A stretch of DNA of 64,000 nucleotides, from IMG/VR virus record IMGVR_UViG_3300036790_000049, positions 1 through 64,000 of that record. One strand, written 5' to 3'. Below, one piece after another: positions 16,741 through 23,303 of this stretch. The notes beneath the pieces are model-generated. The model was not told the DNA's origin. It searched no databases and saw only the letters and a list, made by a program, of their open reading frames with translations. The position numbers and the translations under genes are program-made. Numbering within the stretch: the first letter of the stretch is position 1; the number at the start of each line of letters is the position of its first letter. This DNA comes from a virus.

Positions 16741-16767
16741 GTTCCGGAGGTTCTGGATGTTCTGGTC
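16741..16767 (+). repeat. 9-bp tandem repeat abutting a stop codon
   Basis: GTTCCGGAG, GTTCTGGAT and GTTCTGGTC end exactly at the TAG (minus strand) of the secreted-protein gene. Confidence 0.8.
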
Positions 16768-17714
16768 TAGACGCACGCCTTCACGCCGGACGCGAAGTAG
16801 CTGTACAGCCACTTGCCGGTCGTTCCGTTCGAGTACCCCAGTCGCAGTCCCTTCGGGAACGAGCCGCCGCGATGCGTGACGAACGACACGGAGCCGTTTG
16901 CCCCAACTGTCAGCGAATGGCCGATGCCGAGATACTTGCCGCTGTTGAGCCGGGTTGACGCGTAGAAGGTCACGTTGCGGTCACCCGCAGTGTCGGTGAC
17001 AGTCCAGTGACGATTGGCGTAGTTGCCGCACACGTCCACGGCCGAGAGCTTGTTCGTCACCGGAGCCGGGGCACACTGGCTAACTCCGGTGATATCGCCG
17101 CTCGTGGCCTGCGAGCCGTTGTAGGCGTCAGTCCACTGCTGGCAGTCGGCCGCGTCACTGTAGTGCCACGCCCATGTGGTGAGGTCCGGACCCGCGCCGA
17201 AAGTGACGTCGGAGCCAAAGAACTGCTCAACCCAGTCTGTCGTGCTTACGCCGCCGCCACCGGTCCACTTCGCGGGCATGTCGGCCGCATCGGGGGTGTT
17301 TGAACTGGCATCGAACGTCACGGAAGCGGTACCCGAGATCGCAGCTTGCGGACTGCCCGTAATCGGGATGGCCTGCGCCCCCGGGGAGATGGCCCCGGTC
17401 ACGGCATATGCGGTTCCGGTGTCCGAGATCGTGCCCGTGTAGCTGTAGCACGACGTTGCCGTAGCGCCGCAGTCGGTCAGGGTGGCGTCAGCTTCCACGA
17501 GAGTAACGGCAGCCGTGCGCGTCATCGAGTCGTTAGCCCAGTTATCTCCGCTGTAGCCGGAATCCGGCCGGGCATGCAGTGCGGTTGACGCGCTGACGGT
17601 GGTAGCTGCGTTTGCGGCCCCGGCGACTGCCAGAGAGACAGCCCCGAAACCAGAGATCGCCGTAACGGCAGACAGCACCGCAACGACGACCTTCCTGCTG
17701 ATGAAACCGTGCAT
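16767..17714 (-). CDS. Secreted protein with signal peptide
   Basis: The 315-residue protein has a classical Sec signal: a basic start (MHGFISRKVV), a hydrophobic core to about residue 33 and an AANA-ATT cleavage site. The mature part is Ser/Thr/Gly-rich, with paired Cys residues and a C-terminal beta domain (SGKYLGIGHSL, GSFPKGLRLGYSN, GKWLYSYFASG). Such export is unusual for a phage gene and suggests an accessory protein acting outside the infected cell or in its wall. No catalytic motif is recognised. Confidence 0.75.
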   Translation of the reverse strand: MHGFISRKVVVAVLSAVTAISGFGAVSLAVAGAANAATTVSASTALHARPDSGYSGDNWANDSMTRTAAVTLVEADATLTDCGATATSCYSYTGTISDTGTAYAVTGAISPGAQAIPITGSPQAAISGTASVTFDASSNTPDAADMPAKWTGGGGVSTTDWVEQFFGSDVTFGAGPDLTTWAWHYSDAADCQQWTDAYNGSQATSGDITGVSQCAPAPVTNKLSAVDVCGNYANRHWTVTDTAGDRNVTFYASTRLNSGKYLGIGHSLTVGANGSVSFVTHRGGSFPKGLRLGYSNGTTGKWLYSYFASGVKACV

Positions 17715-17970: not shown

Positions 17971-18540
17971 TTAGCCGTTCATCGTCCACTTGCCGTCGGT
18001 GGGGTAGTTGACCCCCGGACTTGAGACGACTTCCAGGAACTTGTTGGACGAGTCCCAGACGATGCCCCACGCCTTCCCGTTGCTCTCGGTTGTGGTAGCA
18101 CCCTTGCTGATGATCACACCGAACGTGCCGTTGGTCGGCGCGTTGCTGAAATCCTCGTCCGTGTTGCCGTCGCCGCCGGTACAGGTCAGTTCGATCACGA
18201 ACCCGGAACCCGGCTCCTCCGGAGATGCCCAGTCCAGGCACAGCTTGGAGAAGTTGTCCTGAATGTGCCAGCAGGTACCGCCGTTGCAGTTGTTGTCACC
18301 CTCGTTGATCAGGGTGTACGTCTGCGGCGTGCCGGTGGTGAATGCTGTCACGCAGCGGGCGTCTCCGCCACCAGTGCAGGAGTTGGACGTGCCCTGAACG
18401 CTCTCGGCTGCCAGCCCGACAATCGTGTAGCTGGTGGAAGCCGATGCGGGTCCGGCGACTGCCACCGCAGCACCGATACCGGCAAGCGGCACGATGAACG
18501 CGGCGGCAATGACGGCCAGCCTTCGCCTAATTCTCAGCAT
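17971..18540 (-). CDS. Secreted protein with signal peptide
   Basis: This 189-residue protein starts MLRIRRRLAVIAAAF with a long hydrophobic signal ending at PASA-STS. The mature domain has three pairs of Cys (SCTGGGDARC, NCNGGTC, LCLDW...LTC), indicating disulphides, and QW-like carbohydrate-binding flavour (TCWHIQDNFSKLCLDW, FLEVVSS). It may be a small beta-trefoil or lectin-like protein. It forms a pair with the next secreted gene. Confidence 0.75.
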   Translation of the reverse strand: MLRIRRRLAVIAAAFIVPLAGIGAAVAVAGPASASTSYTIVGLAAESVQGTSNSCTGGGDARCVTAFTTGTPQTYTLINEGDNNCNGGTCWHIQDNFSKLCLDWASPEEPGSGFVIELTCTGGDGNTDEDFSNAPTNGTFGVIISKGATTTESNGKAWGIVWDSSNKFLEVVSSPGVNYPTDGKWTMNG

Positions 18541-18603: not shown

Positions 18604-18927
18604 TTACTCCGGAGTGCTGCTTGCTGCCGGATGCGAAACAGGCGAGGTGGAGACGGGTGGCGAGGAAATCGGCGCACCGGCCACCGCACCGGCAGCCGCG
18701 TTGACTTCCGCGAGCTTGGCACGCACGAGCGCATCCTTGGCCTCCAGGAGCCTGTGCAGGCCGGTGGTGAGCATCGGCGAGTCCTTGATCTCGATGATCA
18801 TGTGCTCGGCCAGGTCGTGCATGTCGGTGGCGATCTCGCGCAGCGGAGACGGCAGGTGCGCCGACTCAAAGAACTGGGCGACGTGCACGACGGCCGGGTT
18901 ACGGCCCTCAAGAGTTGACTTTTGCAT
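18604..18927 (-). CDS. Acb2/Tad1-hairpin-domain-like protein (cyclic-nucleotide sponge)
   Basis: The 107-residue product has the compact helical hairpin pattern of phage Acb2-type proteins: HLPSPLREIATDMHDLAEHM, then SPMLTTGLHRLLEAKDALVRAKL at about residues 51-73. The LLEAKDA-VRA signature is the feature I recognise. Acb2 proteins bind cyclic di- and trinucleotides and block CBASS, and relatives block Thoeris. A disordered Pro/Ser tail follows. Its place beside secreted proteins fits an accessory gene. The identification is by pattern only; it could be a structural relative without ligand binding. Confidence 0.7.
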   Translation of the reverse strand: MQKSTLEGRNPAVVHVAQFFESAHLPSPLREIATDMHDLAEHMIIEIKDSPMLTTGLHRLLEAKDALVRAKLAEVNAAAGAVAGAPISSPPVSTSPVSHPAASSTPE

Positions 18928-18944
18928 AACTGGTTCTCTCTTTC

Positions 18945-19211
18945 CTAATCCAGTATTCCGGATGCCCGGAGATCTTTTTCGTCACTTCCCGTGAAAGTTG
19001 CGTAACCCCCATCCTCTTCGTCGGCAATGGTATCTCCTGGATTGGGATCTTTTGCGGCATCCCGGTTGAGGACTTCGGCCACAAACTCCGCATCCTCTTT
19101 CTGCATTATCTGGCAGAGAAATCTTTCGTTCGGCCGGTCGTTCTTGACAAATACTGACCAGTCGTTCCCTCCCAAATCGTTGCCTGTTCTGGCCGCACGG
19201 TAATAAATCAT
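18945..19211 (-). CDS. Hypothetical protein, 88 residues
   Basis: The start is MIYYRAARTG after AAAGAGGAGTCAA. The product has an N-terminal alpha/beta half (DWSVFVKNDRPNERFLCQIM) and an acidic C-terminal tail. It lies directly downstream of the polymerase gene, with a 16-base gap. No family is recognised. Confidence 0.65.
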   Translation of the reverse strand: MIYYRAARTGNDLGGNDWSVFVKNDRPNERFLCQIMQKEDAEFVAEVLNRDAAKDPNPGDTIADEEDGGYATFTGSDEKDLRASGILD

Positions 19212-19227: not shown

Positions 19228-22200
19228 CTAGTCTGGTTCGATAACCCAGAGATGGTCAACGGCTATTGCGGCTCCGAATCCCTTGCTCTCGCGGCCGACC
19301 ACGACTACCGCGTCCTCGCCAACCGTGATTGCGTCGATCTGTGCCTTGAATCTGGGGAAATGGAACCTGTTAAACCGTAGGTAAACGTCCTCCTCTCCAG
19401 TGTCATAGCATCGGAGCGTGGCGAACTTGGCGAGATCCGGGCGTTTGATGTCCCTGCGGATCTCATCGACTTCGCGGCCGGAACGCGCACGCTGGTCCTC
19501 GATAATGTCCTTGTAGTCTCTGCCGCGCACTAGACCGCAGTAGACGACCTTCCGGCCTCTGCCCATTGGAGTCTCCCACGTCTGGCTCTGCATGTCCGTG
19601 GAGACGACCGTGGGCATCGGCAGCTTAAGCTCGCCCGCGAGGATCGCCCGCTTGACCTGCCCGATTACATTCGCGGCCCTGAACACTCCGAACGGGTCTG
19701 GAGTCTCGGCCCAATCCCGGATCTTGCCGAGCGTCACCGGGCCGATGCCTTTGACCTTGAGCAGGTCTTTCCACTCCCCGCCCCAAGTATCCGGTGCAAG
19801 CTCCTCTGCGCGCTGCTGCACGATCGCACGGGCGGTCACGTCACCGATTCCGGGTACCTGCATGAATCCGGCCTGAATGGATTTCCGGTCCTCACCGAGC
19901 GTCCACGTAACGCTGGAGTTATTCGGATGTGGCGGCAGGAAGCTAATCCCGTGCTCGGCAGCGTCCTTGAGCAGGCGCACTGTGACGTTCTCGTTGTCCG
20001 CTTTCATCAGCGACGCGGTATAGAACTCCGCTGGGAAGTAGACTTTGAGCCACATGCACCACCAGGCCAAGACCGCATACGACACCGAATGCGCAGTGTT
20101 AAAGGCATAAGTTCCCGCAGTGACGAGCCGTTTCCAGATCCGTAGAGCGAGATCTTCATCGATATCGTGAAGCCTTTTCGCTCCGTCTGCGAACTGGCGG
20201 AAGTTGACATTGAATGCCGCCTCTCCGAGTTTCTTGGCGATGATGCGACGTACCGAGTTTGCGTCTGTCCAGTCGAATCCGCCGATCTCACGGACTACCG
20301 CAATGATCTGCTCCTGGTAGATTATCTGCCCGCGTGTTCCGGCAGTGATCTTATCCATTGCCGGGTGCAGTGCTTCCGGCTTCTCTCTGCCCCACCGGAT
20401 AGCCGTGTAGATCGTGGTCGTTCCGGAGAACAGAGGACCAGGACGCGACAATGCGTTGATGTCGGCAAGGTCCATGAACCGCTCCGGCTTCACGTTCCGG
20501 TTCACAATCCGGGTAGCTCGTCCCTCGAACTGGAATATGCCGATGACGTCATTCCGCGAGAATGCGGCCATGACTTCCTCGTCCTTGTCCGAGATCGAGT
20601 AGAGGTTCTCAAGGTCCAGCCCGGCTAGTTCTAGCGCATGCGAGATCATGCCCATTGTGGTGAGACCTAGGAAGTCCATTTTAAGGAAGTCCAGGTACTC
20701 GGCATCGTACTTGTCGCATGCCAGAACGCGCAGCTCTCTGCGCCTCTCTCCGGTCCCGGAATTGCGGGTGTACAGCGCAGTCACGTCGGTGATTGGCCGC
20801 GTCCCCACGACGAGCCCGGCCGCGTGCACGCTCATCCCGCGCATGTTCCCCTCTAGCCGGAATGCCGCCTTGAGATCCGGGTACTTGTCGAACACGGCTT
20901 GCGCGGCAGGGAAACTGTCCACCGTGTCACTAAGCGACGAATCCAGTCGCATGTCTCCGTCCGACCGGTGCGCAACGAGGTCGTTGACCGCCGCTATCTC
21001 GAACCGTGGCACCCGGTAAACCCGGGCGGCATCTACCAGGCTGTTCTTTCCCCGGTACCGGATGAAGTTCCCGATGTTGCCGACGTTATCCTCGCCGTAC
21101 TTCCGCATGAGATACTGGCGTATCTCCTCGCGGCGTTCGTCGTCAAAGTCGAGATCGATGTCAGGCGGGTCGGGCCTAGCCGGGTCTATGAACCGTTCCA
21201 GCATCATCATCGGGTAGCGCATCGGGTTGATCTCGGTTATCCGCAGCAGGTAGCAGACGAGCGATGCTGCCGCCGAGCCGCGAGCCGGGCCGACCGAGAT
21301 GCCGGAATTCTTTGTCCACTGGATGACGTCGGCAGTCGCGATAAAGAAATCCGCGAAGTCCTTGTCGGTGATCATCCCTAGCTCGCGGTCGATCCGTTCC
21401 CGGAATCGCTTTTGCTTGCCCGGCTTAAGCTGGTCGAATCCCCTGTACCGCCATCCCTGCATGACCATGTGAAACAAGTAGTCGTACGCGGAATCGAATC
21501 CCTCTGGCAGCGGGAAGCGCAGCCGTTCGGCTCTAGGCAGCCTCACCCGTGCCCGCTCCGCCAAGCTTGCGGCGTTGCCGATAGCGCCACGGGCTGCCGA
21601 AGGGGACAGCCCAGTGCCGATTAGTTTCTTGTAGAGTGCCTTGTCTGATTTCGGGTAGGTGAGCCGGACGTCGTATTCCCACGACTGCGCCTGGACGTCG
21701 AATTGCTGATTACCGCGCCCTGCGGCGTGCAAGATGACCTGCATTTCGTTGTCGTCCGGGAAAGGATAGTGAACGTCGCATGTCGCCACGAGCGGAATTC
21801 CCAGTTTTTTACCCAAGCGCTCGTAAGCGGGATTGATCGCGCATGTCTTACCGAGCTTAGGGAAAGCCTGTACCTCCAGAAAATACCGGTCTCCAAGTAG
21901 CTCTCGGAAACGTGCGGCCACCTCCCCCGCCGCACGAATATCGGGGGCATGGTCGTCTGTCCCCTTCCCTCCGACAAGAGTGCACGCCAGGAGCGAACCC
22001 GTACACCCTGAAAGGACAGCGAGACCCTCTCCGTACTGGGCGAGCGATTCGCCCGAAACTGTAGGTTCATAGTAGAACCCCTCTCCCCACGACTCGGTTA
22101 CGATCTTCATAAGGTTCTGGTACCCCGGCACGTCTAGCGCGATGACCCCGAGATGCCATTTCATCTTGCGCCGCGTCTCCACGGCGGTTGGCCCGGTGTA

Positions 22201-22401
22201 CAGTTCTGCGCCGTAGATCGGCTTGATACCAGCCTTGTCACATGCCTTCTGGTGCCGGACGTGCGAGCTAACATTGCCGTGCTCGGTCAGGGCAAGGCTT
22301 GACATGCCTAGGTCTGCCACCCGGTTGACGTGTGTGACAGGCTGGCCAAATCCGTCCATGTAGGAATAGGTCGAGTGAGTATGCAGACTAACCCAGTCCA
22401 C
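19228..22401 (-). CDS. C-family DNA polymerase (DnaE-like alpha subunit)
   Basis: The 1057-residue replicative polymerase begins with a PHP domain (HTHSTYS at 7-13 and LTEHGN at 38-43) that keeps its metal-binding histidines and may proofread. The palm carries GPARGSAAAS (371-380), the catalytic PDIDLDF (413-419) and a third Asp in FLKMDFLG (about 576). Fingers and a YQEQ motif follow. Two helix-hairpin-helix segments (VPGIGDVTARAI and VKGIGPVTLGKI) lie near 840-890, then an OB-like end. It is slightly shorter than cellular DnaE and no sliding clamp is encoded in the window, so it probably uses the host clamp. Confidence 0.93.
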   Translation of the reverse strand: MDWVSLHTHSTYSYMDGFGQPVTHVNRVADLGMSSLALTEHGNVSSHVRHQKACDKAGIKPIYGAELYTGPTAVETRRKMKWHLGVIALDVPGYQNLMKIVTESWGEGFYYEPTVSGESLAQYGEGLAVLSGCTGSLLACTLVGGKGTDDHAPDIRAAGEVAARFRELLGDRYFLEVQAFPKLGKTCAINPAYERLGKKLGIPLVATCDVHYPFPDDNEMQVILHAAGRGNQQFDVQAQSWEYDVRLTYPKSDKALYKKLIGTGLSPSAARGAIGNAASLAERARVRLPRAERLRFPLPEGFDSAYDYLFHMVMQGWRYRGFDQLKPGKQKRFRERIDRELGMITDKDFADFFIATADVIQWTKNSGISVGPARGSAAASLVCYLLRITEINPMRYPMMMLERFIDPARPDPPDIDLDFDDERREEIRQYLMRKYGEDNVGNIGNFIRYRGKNSLVDAARVYRVPRFEIAAVNDLVAHRSDGDMRLDSSLSDTVDSFPAAQAVFDKYPDLKAAFRLEGNMRGMSVHAAGLVVGTRPITDVTALYTRNSGTGERRRELRVLACDKYDAEYLDFLKMDFLGLTTMGMISHALELAGLDLENLYSISDKDEEVMAAFSRNDVIGIFQFEGRATRIVNRNVKPERFMDLADINALSRPGPLFSGTTTIYTAIRWGREKPEALHPAMDKITAGTRGQIIYQEQIIAVVREIGGFDWTDANSVRRIIAKKLGEAAFNVNFRQFADGAKRLHDIDEDLALRIWKRLVTAGTYAFNTAHSVSYAVLAWWCMWLKVYFPAEFYTASLMKADNENVTVRLLKDAAEHGISFLPPHPNNSSVTWTLGEDRKSIQAGFMQVPGIGDVTARAIVQQRAEELAPDTWGGEWKDLLKVKGIGPVTLGKIRDWAETPDPFGVFRAANVIGQVKRAILAGELKLPMPTVVSTDMQSQTWETPMGRGRKVVYCGLVRGRDYKDIIEDQRARSGREVDEIRRDIKRPDLAKFATLRCYDTGEEDVYLRFNRFHFPRFKAQIDAITVGEDAVVVVGRESKGFGAAIAVDHLWVIEPD

Positions 22402-22679: not shown

Positions 22680-23303
22680 CTATCCGTTCGCGCCGGTCAG
22701 GCCGACTGACGCCGTTGCGATCCGCTCAATGAGCGCGTCAATGAGCACCGATGCCCGGCCGCTCTCGAATACGCCTTGCGGCGTCTCGCTCCAGCACATC
22801 GATGCCGCCCCGAGAGCTAGGCCGAGAGCTTCCCTGACACTCTCCGCACCTAGGATAGCGTGCGCAGCCTCGCCCGCGACTTCCTCTGTCGGGATCATGA
22901 GCCCGGCGCGCTGCTGTGTGGCCATCGCCTTGAACATGCCGATAGTGCCGAGAGCCTGGTCCCAGGAGTAGAACCGGATTCCCCGGTCGTCAAGGTAGAA
23001 CTCGGCCGCGAACTTCCGGCTCGTGCACATAATCAGGTTCCGGGTTTTCCAGAACATCGGCCGCTGACCGTCGTCGGCCACGGCCGGAATGCCCTGGTCG
23101 ATGAGCCACTCAGCTACCCTTACTGGATTCCGCGACGTGTGCACGAATATCGCGTAATGCCGCATGAGCGTCTTGAGCCCGTCAAGCGCGCCGGGATTGG
23201 GCGGGTCGTAGATCTGTCCGTCCTGCCATCCCTTGCTGTACCGGTGGATCACCCCGTCGAAATCCACTCCGCCAGCAGCGACGTAATCCTCAGTGAGCGC
23301 CAA
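22680..23303 (-). CDS. HAD-family phosphatase-like protein
   Basis: The 207-residue product has GVDFDGVIHRY (D14, D16), matching the DxDG nucleophile motif of HAD hydrolases. VHTSRN supplies the motif II Ser/Thr, and EFYLDDRGIRF fits the motif IV acidic pair. Phage HAD phosphatases usually act on nucleotides or polynucleotide ends. A helical C-terminal extension of about 80 residues follows. The start overlaps the previous gene by 14 bases. Confidence 0.75.
   Translation of the reverse strand: MALTEDYVAAGGVDFDGVIHRYSKGWQDGQIYDPPNPGALDGLKTLMRHYAIFVHTSRNPVRVAEWLIDQGIPAVADDGQRPMFWKTRNLIMCTSRKFAAEFYLDDRGIRFYSWDQALGTIGMFKAMATQQRAGLMIPTEEVAGEAAHAILGAESVREALGLALGAASMCWSETPQGVFESGRASVLIDALIERIATASVGLTGANG

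Follow-up and report, generated by a model that had tools for sequence, protein, structure and literature searches.

The window analysed here comprises 64,000 nucleotides of a virus record of 65,151 bases in total. The source virus is a tailed phage. Among portal proteins, its own is nearest to those of actinobacterial phages, and the phage genes in the window include those for capsid, portal, a Sipho_Gp37-like protein, a DnaE-type polymerase, ThyX and an SNF2 helicase; no tRNA genes were found in it. The open reading frame at 18604-18927 (minus strand) encodes a 107-amino-acid protein of a family that we call HLP/EAKD after its conserved motifs. As the preliminary description had stated, the product contains both HLPSPLREIATDMHDLAE and LLEAKDALVRA. 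A Shine-Dalgarno-like sequence, AGGAAAGAGAG (18936-18946, minus strand, recognised by eye), precedes the ATG at a distance of 8 nt. The frame is a real gene and not a chance occurrence, because relatives were retrieved by tblastn and PHROG profiles were matched with E-values of 4e-19 and 4e-17.

The gene lies among small genes of unknown function and adjoins replication genes (DnaE-type polymerase and ThyX). Its placement in an accessory group is fair in view of these surroundings and of a neighbourhood that varies across relatives, and the secreted neighbours that had been reported were also found: the products of the minus-strand frames 17971-18540 and 16767-17714 both open with signal-peptide-like segments, as judged by eye. 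Both genes lie in the middle region of the phage. The 17971-18540 protein gave a weak, sub-threshold match to a CofB beta-repeat (0.0045). On the other side, a full-length DnaE-type DNA polymerase III alpha subunit with a PHP domain, here carried by a phage, is encoded at 19228-22401 (minus strand). The 22680-23303 product (minus strand) contains a HAD-like motif, DFDGVIH, seen by eye, and matches phrog_1238 (1.1e-12); a homologue of it is encoded directly upstream of the HLP/EAKD gene in three other loci.

The window protein matched phrog_5120 (E=3.9e-19) and phrog_1761 (E=3.7e-17) over its domain. Both profiles, whose function is annotated as unknown, were matched by 56/56 aligned relatives. 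By tblastn, relatives were retrieved from 280 phage records at E<=0.01, a number that rose to 316 when the threshold was relaxed to E<=0.1; the hosts of these phages include Vibrio, Mycobacterium, Erwinia, Acinetobacter, Gordonia and Brevibacterium. At least 574 related loci were recovered from IMG/VR by a scan with the family motif, and the scan of GTDB genomes added 190, whose carriers include Actinomycetota, Pseudomonadota, Chloroflexota and cyanobacteria. The shared domain of about 60 residues reads F-x-Y-x-HLP-x-x-L-Q-x-V-S ... LA-x-x-M ... LPDGPELTxGLRKLLEAKDCfVRAaL, the T after PDGPEL being optional. Residues H24, L25, L60, E62, A63, K64, D65 and R69 vary little or not at all, and V68 is also listed as invariant; conservation of LLEAKD is partly imposed by the search pattern in the IMG/VR and GTDB scans, while the tblastn-derived set is free of that bias. 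Within the family the window protein is an outlier, with Ser22 at a position that normally holds Tyr or Phe, Met52 in place of the Glu found in 98% of members and His58 in place of the Arg found in 97%, so that the family-typical E52 and R58 are both missing. When the window protein and its relatives were scanned against Pfam, NCBIfam and PADLOC, no informative match was returned. Nearly all annotations seen for family genes were hypothetical or unknown, and no paper in the literature library searched mentioned the family's PHROG numbers or the accession PF24729. HLP/EAKD is a widespread unnamed phage family, represented by phrog_5120 and phrog_1761.

The AlphaFold2 model of the window protein, built from 56 sequences, has a pLDDT of 90.5 and consists of three helices and a loose tail, all encoded on the minus strand. 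A short N-terminal helix (residues 11-20, 18868-18897, pLDDT ~97) is followed by a loop with S22-A-H-L-P26 (18850-18864), in which family and profile alignments place residue 22 in the column of T4 Acb2 Tyr8. The hairpin is then formed by helix 1 (residues 29-46, 18790-18843) and helix 2 (residues 51-83, 18679-18777); according to the alignments, the latter carries the invariant L60, E62-A63-K64-D65, V68 and R69 as well as H58, which aligns with Thr68 of T4 Acb2. Judging from the hairpin, the two helices probably pack in antiparallel fashion. The Ala/Pro/Ser/Thr-rich C-terminal tail (residues 84-107, 18607-18678) is predicted to be loose (pLDDT ~70) and is absent from relatives. The order of short helix, loop and two-helix hairpin is common to this model, to the model of the phrog_1454 clade of PF24729 considered below (helices 2-8, 18-39 and 44-67) and to Acb2, which has been described with a short helix, a loop and two long helices (PMC12043709).

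When the model was compared with the viral library BFVD using Foldseek, the six top-ranked matches were structurally close (prob 1.00), as would be expected of family members. One family structural match, A0A6G6XYP8 from Ochrobactrum phage vB_OspP_OH, is named 'Anti-TRAP domain-containing protein' and is perhaps a fusion to a zinc-binding domain. The first match outside the family was a protein of a Providencia phage that is annotated as 'Acb2/Tad1 hairpin domain-containing protein', with prob 0.99, E 0.21 and a TM, by target, of 0.71. Against the PDB, Foldseek retrieved no Acb2 with the window model; this result carries no weight, since a genuine PF24729-clade control model did not find Acb2 either.

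The preliminary description had likened the protein to phage sponges of the Acb2/Tad1 type, proteins that sequester bacterial alarm molecules, and had named an HMM search against the hairpin family as a test. This search was negative: PF24729 (Acb2_Tad1_hairpin) did not match the window protein at E<=1. It matched none of 10 family members at E<=10, and two further members were also without a match; the members tried stayed below the curated cut-off of 27 bits that defines membership. The positive controls were readily detected (T4 Vs.4, that is Acb2, 7e-20 and 71 bits; PaMx33-type Acb2, 3e-18). Profile-profile comparison of the family with 80 Acb2 proteins remained at noise level (P 0.06-0.07, a score reached by 18/200 shuffles), the best local alignment placing LLEAKD-x-x-VRA in register with DIQTGMMAIIRA. 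PF13876 (Acb4) was likewise unmatched by the window protein, for which the Pfam scan gave no hit whatever, and phmmer and hmmsearch of the protein and its family against the PDB returned only chance-level matches, including P1 sheath Gp22 (E 0.09) and designed helical bundles.

A link to the superfamily was found through an intermediate. When each relative was scanned against the PHROGs, 20 of the 56 also matched phrog_1454 (best 2.9e-5). The phrog_1454 group proper is a common phage protein, FTYHAPKGDQPERYE...CPDSREKSLALTKLEEAVMWANASIARNE, with the clade signature SREKSLALTKLEEAVMWANASIARNE, and 16/16 of its records tried score 1e-20 to 1e-27 on PF24729. The phrog_1454 consensus used as a query served as a lead; all conclusions rest on the database sequences that it retrieved. 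By hhalign, the HLP/EAKD family aligned to the clade with a score of 27.3 (P 4e-5, probability 70-75%), a value reached by 0/200 shuffled-column controls (mean 10.3, sd 2.35, maximum 18.1) and above the reversed profile (10.7) and the best of 34 unrelated small phage protein clusters (17.8). A single register is kept throughout the alignment, from the first helix over the turn to the second, with the common pattern P-[DS]-x-x-E-[KL]-[ST]-x-x-L-x-K-L-x-E-A. An HMM of the clade detected 40/91 family members at E<=10, six of them below 0.01, and only one of ~10,000 decoys, which comprised ORFs and reversed sequences. A merged HMM of Acb2 and phrog_1454 found the family less well than the phrog_1454 HMM alone and was set aside. 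The clade itself is tied to Acb2 by hhalign (P 6e-6), by a weak match of T4 Vs.4 to phrog_1454 (7e-4) and by its solved relatives, namely 'Acb2 homolog 43' (9ptq, 2.5e-7) and, weakly, Tad1 (0.02) and Vs.4. We also noted a divergent hairpin protein in phage record G024 (L185:1465-1698, minus strand; phrog_1454 6e-9, PF24729 2.4e-5, below the cut-off), whose phage carries an HLP/EAKD member as well and which might link the two groups.

The PHROG matches, the hhalign scores with their controls, the clade HMM and the solved relatives of the clade thus support a chain from the family over phrog_1454 to Acb2, whose first link is moderately strong. At the level of the superfamily, homology to accepted PF24729 members is present, remotely, through phrog_1454. 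Within the Acb2/Tad1 hairpin superfamily, the window protein probably represents a remote branch that lies outside PF24729 as currently defined and is not a classical Acb2 or Tad1. The likeness originally proposed holds in part, as distant kinship via the phrog_1454 clade, as helix architecture and as a Foldseek match; direct membership is not borne out by PF24729 or by the comparison with Acb2, and the contact positions of T4 Acb2 are changed. Standard HMMs do not detect this link, and the family is consequently overlooked when genomes are surveyed for anti-defence genes.

Of two substitutions described for T4 Acb2, Y8A makes the protein deficient in binding and T68M reduces its affinity (PMC12657230). 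By profile alignment, Tyr8 falls in column 22, which holds Tyr in 55/91 members, Phe in 13 and Trp in 4 and is Ser in the window protein, the alignment being of low confidence at that end. Thr68 falls in column 58, which is Arg in nearly all members and His58 in the window protein. The contact pair of Tyr and Thr is thus replaced by Ser22 and His58. Where the phrog_1454 clade has 'VMWAN' in helix 2, the family has 'KDCFV' in the alignment. With the Acb2 contact positions replaced and H24, E62, K64, D65 and R69 invariant, a ligand is probably not bound as Acb2 binds cGAMP. If the family is a sponge, its pocket would not be that of Acb2.

No neighbour or upstream partner gene is conserved across the lineages compared, so no fixed partner is indicated. 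The family gene adjoins terminase and portal genes in some lineages and lysis genes in others, and it is distributed as mobile cargo among phages of many hosts. The interval between topoisomerase and RNA ligase genes in T4-like Acinetobacter phages is variable: phages 133 and W16 carry the family there, Ac42 carries a true Acb2, and others neither. This pattern, seen in only three phages, is suggestive of interchangeable cargo. A repeated small gene, 'NATIYNNLVKVFNDAA', was seen beside the variable cargo in the topoisomerase-rnlB interval (loci L281, L006 and L362-L369), which perhaps represents a small hotspot of counter-defence genes. Co-occurrence with Acb2 was uninformative at base rates below 1%: 0/42 hairpin phages carry the family, and 0/40 family phages have a PF24729 match over the cut-off. 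The comparison of neighbour classes with Acb2 loci is biased, its references having been taken from the family's own loci. In the jumbo Erwinia phage pEa_SNUABM_34 (L010:3755-4183), a fusion protein carries a P-loop domain (GPVGSGKS) N-terminal to the family domain, and an N-terminal part of this kind seems to belong to phrog_1761 as a whole; a general P-loop association of the family was not retained, only one fusion having been found.

Starting from the family, its remote homology, the predicted monomer fold and the residue changes described above, we favour, with a probability of roughly 45%, a divergent branch of the Acb2/Tad1 hairpin proteins that would counter abortive infection. In this model, a small cytosolic protein would assemble into an oligomer driven by its two-helix hairpin, the oligomer would sequester a host nucleotide signal, and this sequestration would spare the phage from abortive-infection defence. 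A nucleotide sponge is thus, tentatively, the most likely single reading, and its main rival is a protein-interaction role on the same fold. A protein of the same ancestry could indeed bind no small nucleotide and act instead as a helper or inhibitor of another protein, for example a host enzyme or a virion or lysis component, with the face formed by E62, K64, D65 and R69 as its interface. We consider this quite possible: the loss of the Acb2 contact residues, the change from 'VMWAN' to 'KDCFV', the proximity to terminase, portal or lysis genes that recurs in some lineages and the P-loop fusion in Erwinia jumbo phages would all fit. However, no single neighbour is conserved across lineages and, to our knowledge, all characterised members of the superfamily are nucleotide sponges.

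The two remaining explanations take opposite views of the kinship. Acb2 is a homohexamer that binds three cyclic dinucleotides and two cyclic trinucleotides, and a classical Acb2 that blocks CBASS in this way would agree with the remote homology and the architecture; the silence of PF24729, the noise-level profile comparison and the loss of the Tyr8 and Thr68 equivalents make it improbable here. It is also improbable that the window protein is an unrelated helical protein whose likeness reflects convergence of short-turn two-helix hairpins. Short amphipathic helices are easily matched, the hhalign probability is 70-75% and not >95%, and the direct comparison with Acb2 fails, but shuffled, reversed and real-family controls all scored below the family-clade match, which follows a shared pattern through helices and turn without any shift of register. 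Returning to the sponge reading, HLP/EAKD might even constitute a large new group with its own pocket (H24, E62, K64, D65, R69), directed against an immune signal other than those of Acb2 and Tad1 and used alike in actinobacterial and proteobacterial phages, a broader proposal that we regard as rather unlikely. Hundreds of phages carry the gene, and its kinship to Acb2/Tad1 offers a concrete and cheap test of function: either a large sponge group would be added to the counter-defence catalogue, or the hairpin fold would have been reused for another task.

Among named systems, Acb4 (PF13876) resembles the window protein as a small, widely distributed phage sponge, but it has a beta-sheet core and forms a tetramer (PMC11722364), and its profile does not match the window protein. 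The C-terminal hairpin of Tad1 (Thoeris anti-defence 1) is weakly matched by the phrog_1454 clade (E 0.02). In Tad1 this hairpin is preceded by an N-terminal four-stranded antiparallel beta-sheet; the window-protein model contains no beta-strand and hence no counterpart of that sheet. Acb2 (T4 Vs.4, PaMx33 p26; PF24729) differs in lacking a direct sequence match, in the changed Tyr8 and Thr68 positions and in its motifs 'GYRDLS' and 'GFMALVRA', which are absent from the family; it is similar in size, helix order and distribution as mobile cargo, and is tied to the family via the phrog_1454 clade. The clade, for its part, scores on PF24729 and is distinguished by the lack of HLP and KD, by a Tyr in the loop, by a Thr before KLEEA and by the presence of W-A-N, whereas it shares with the family the short N-terminal helix, the aromatic-rich loop, the two-helix hairpin and the pattern of the turn and second helix.
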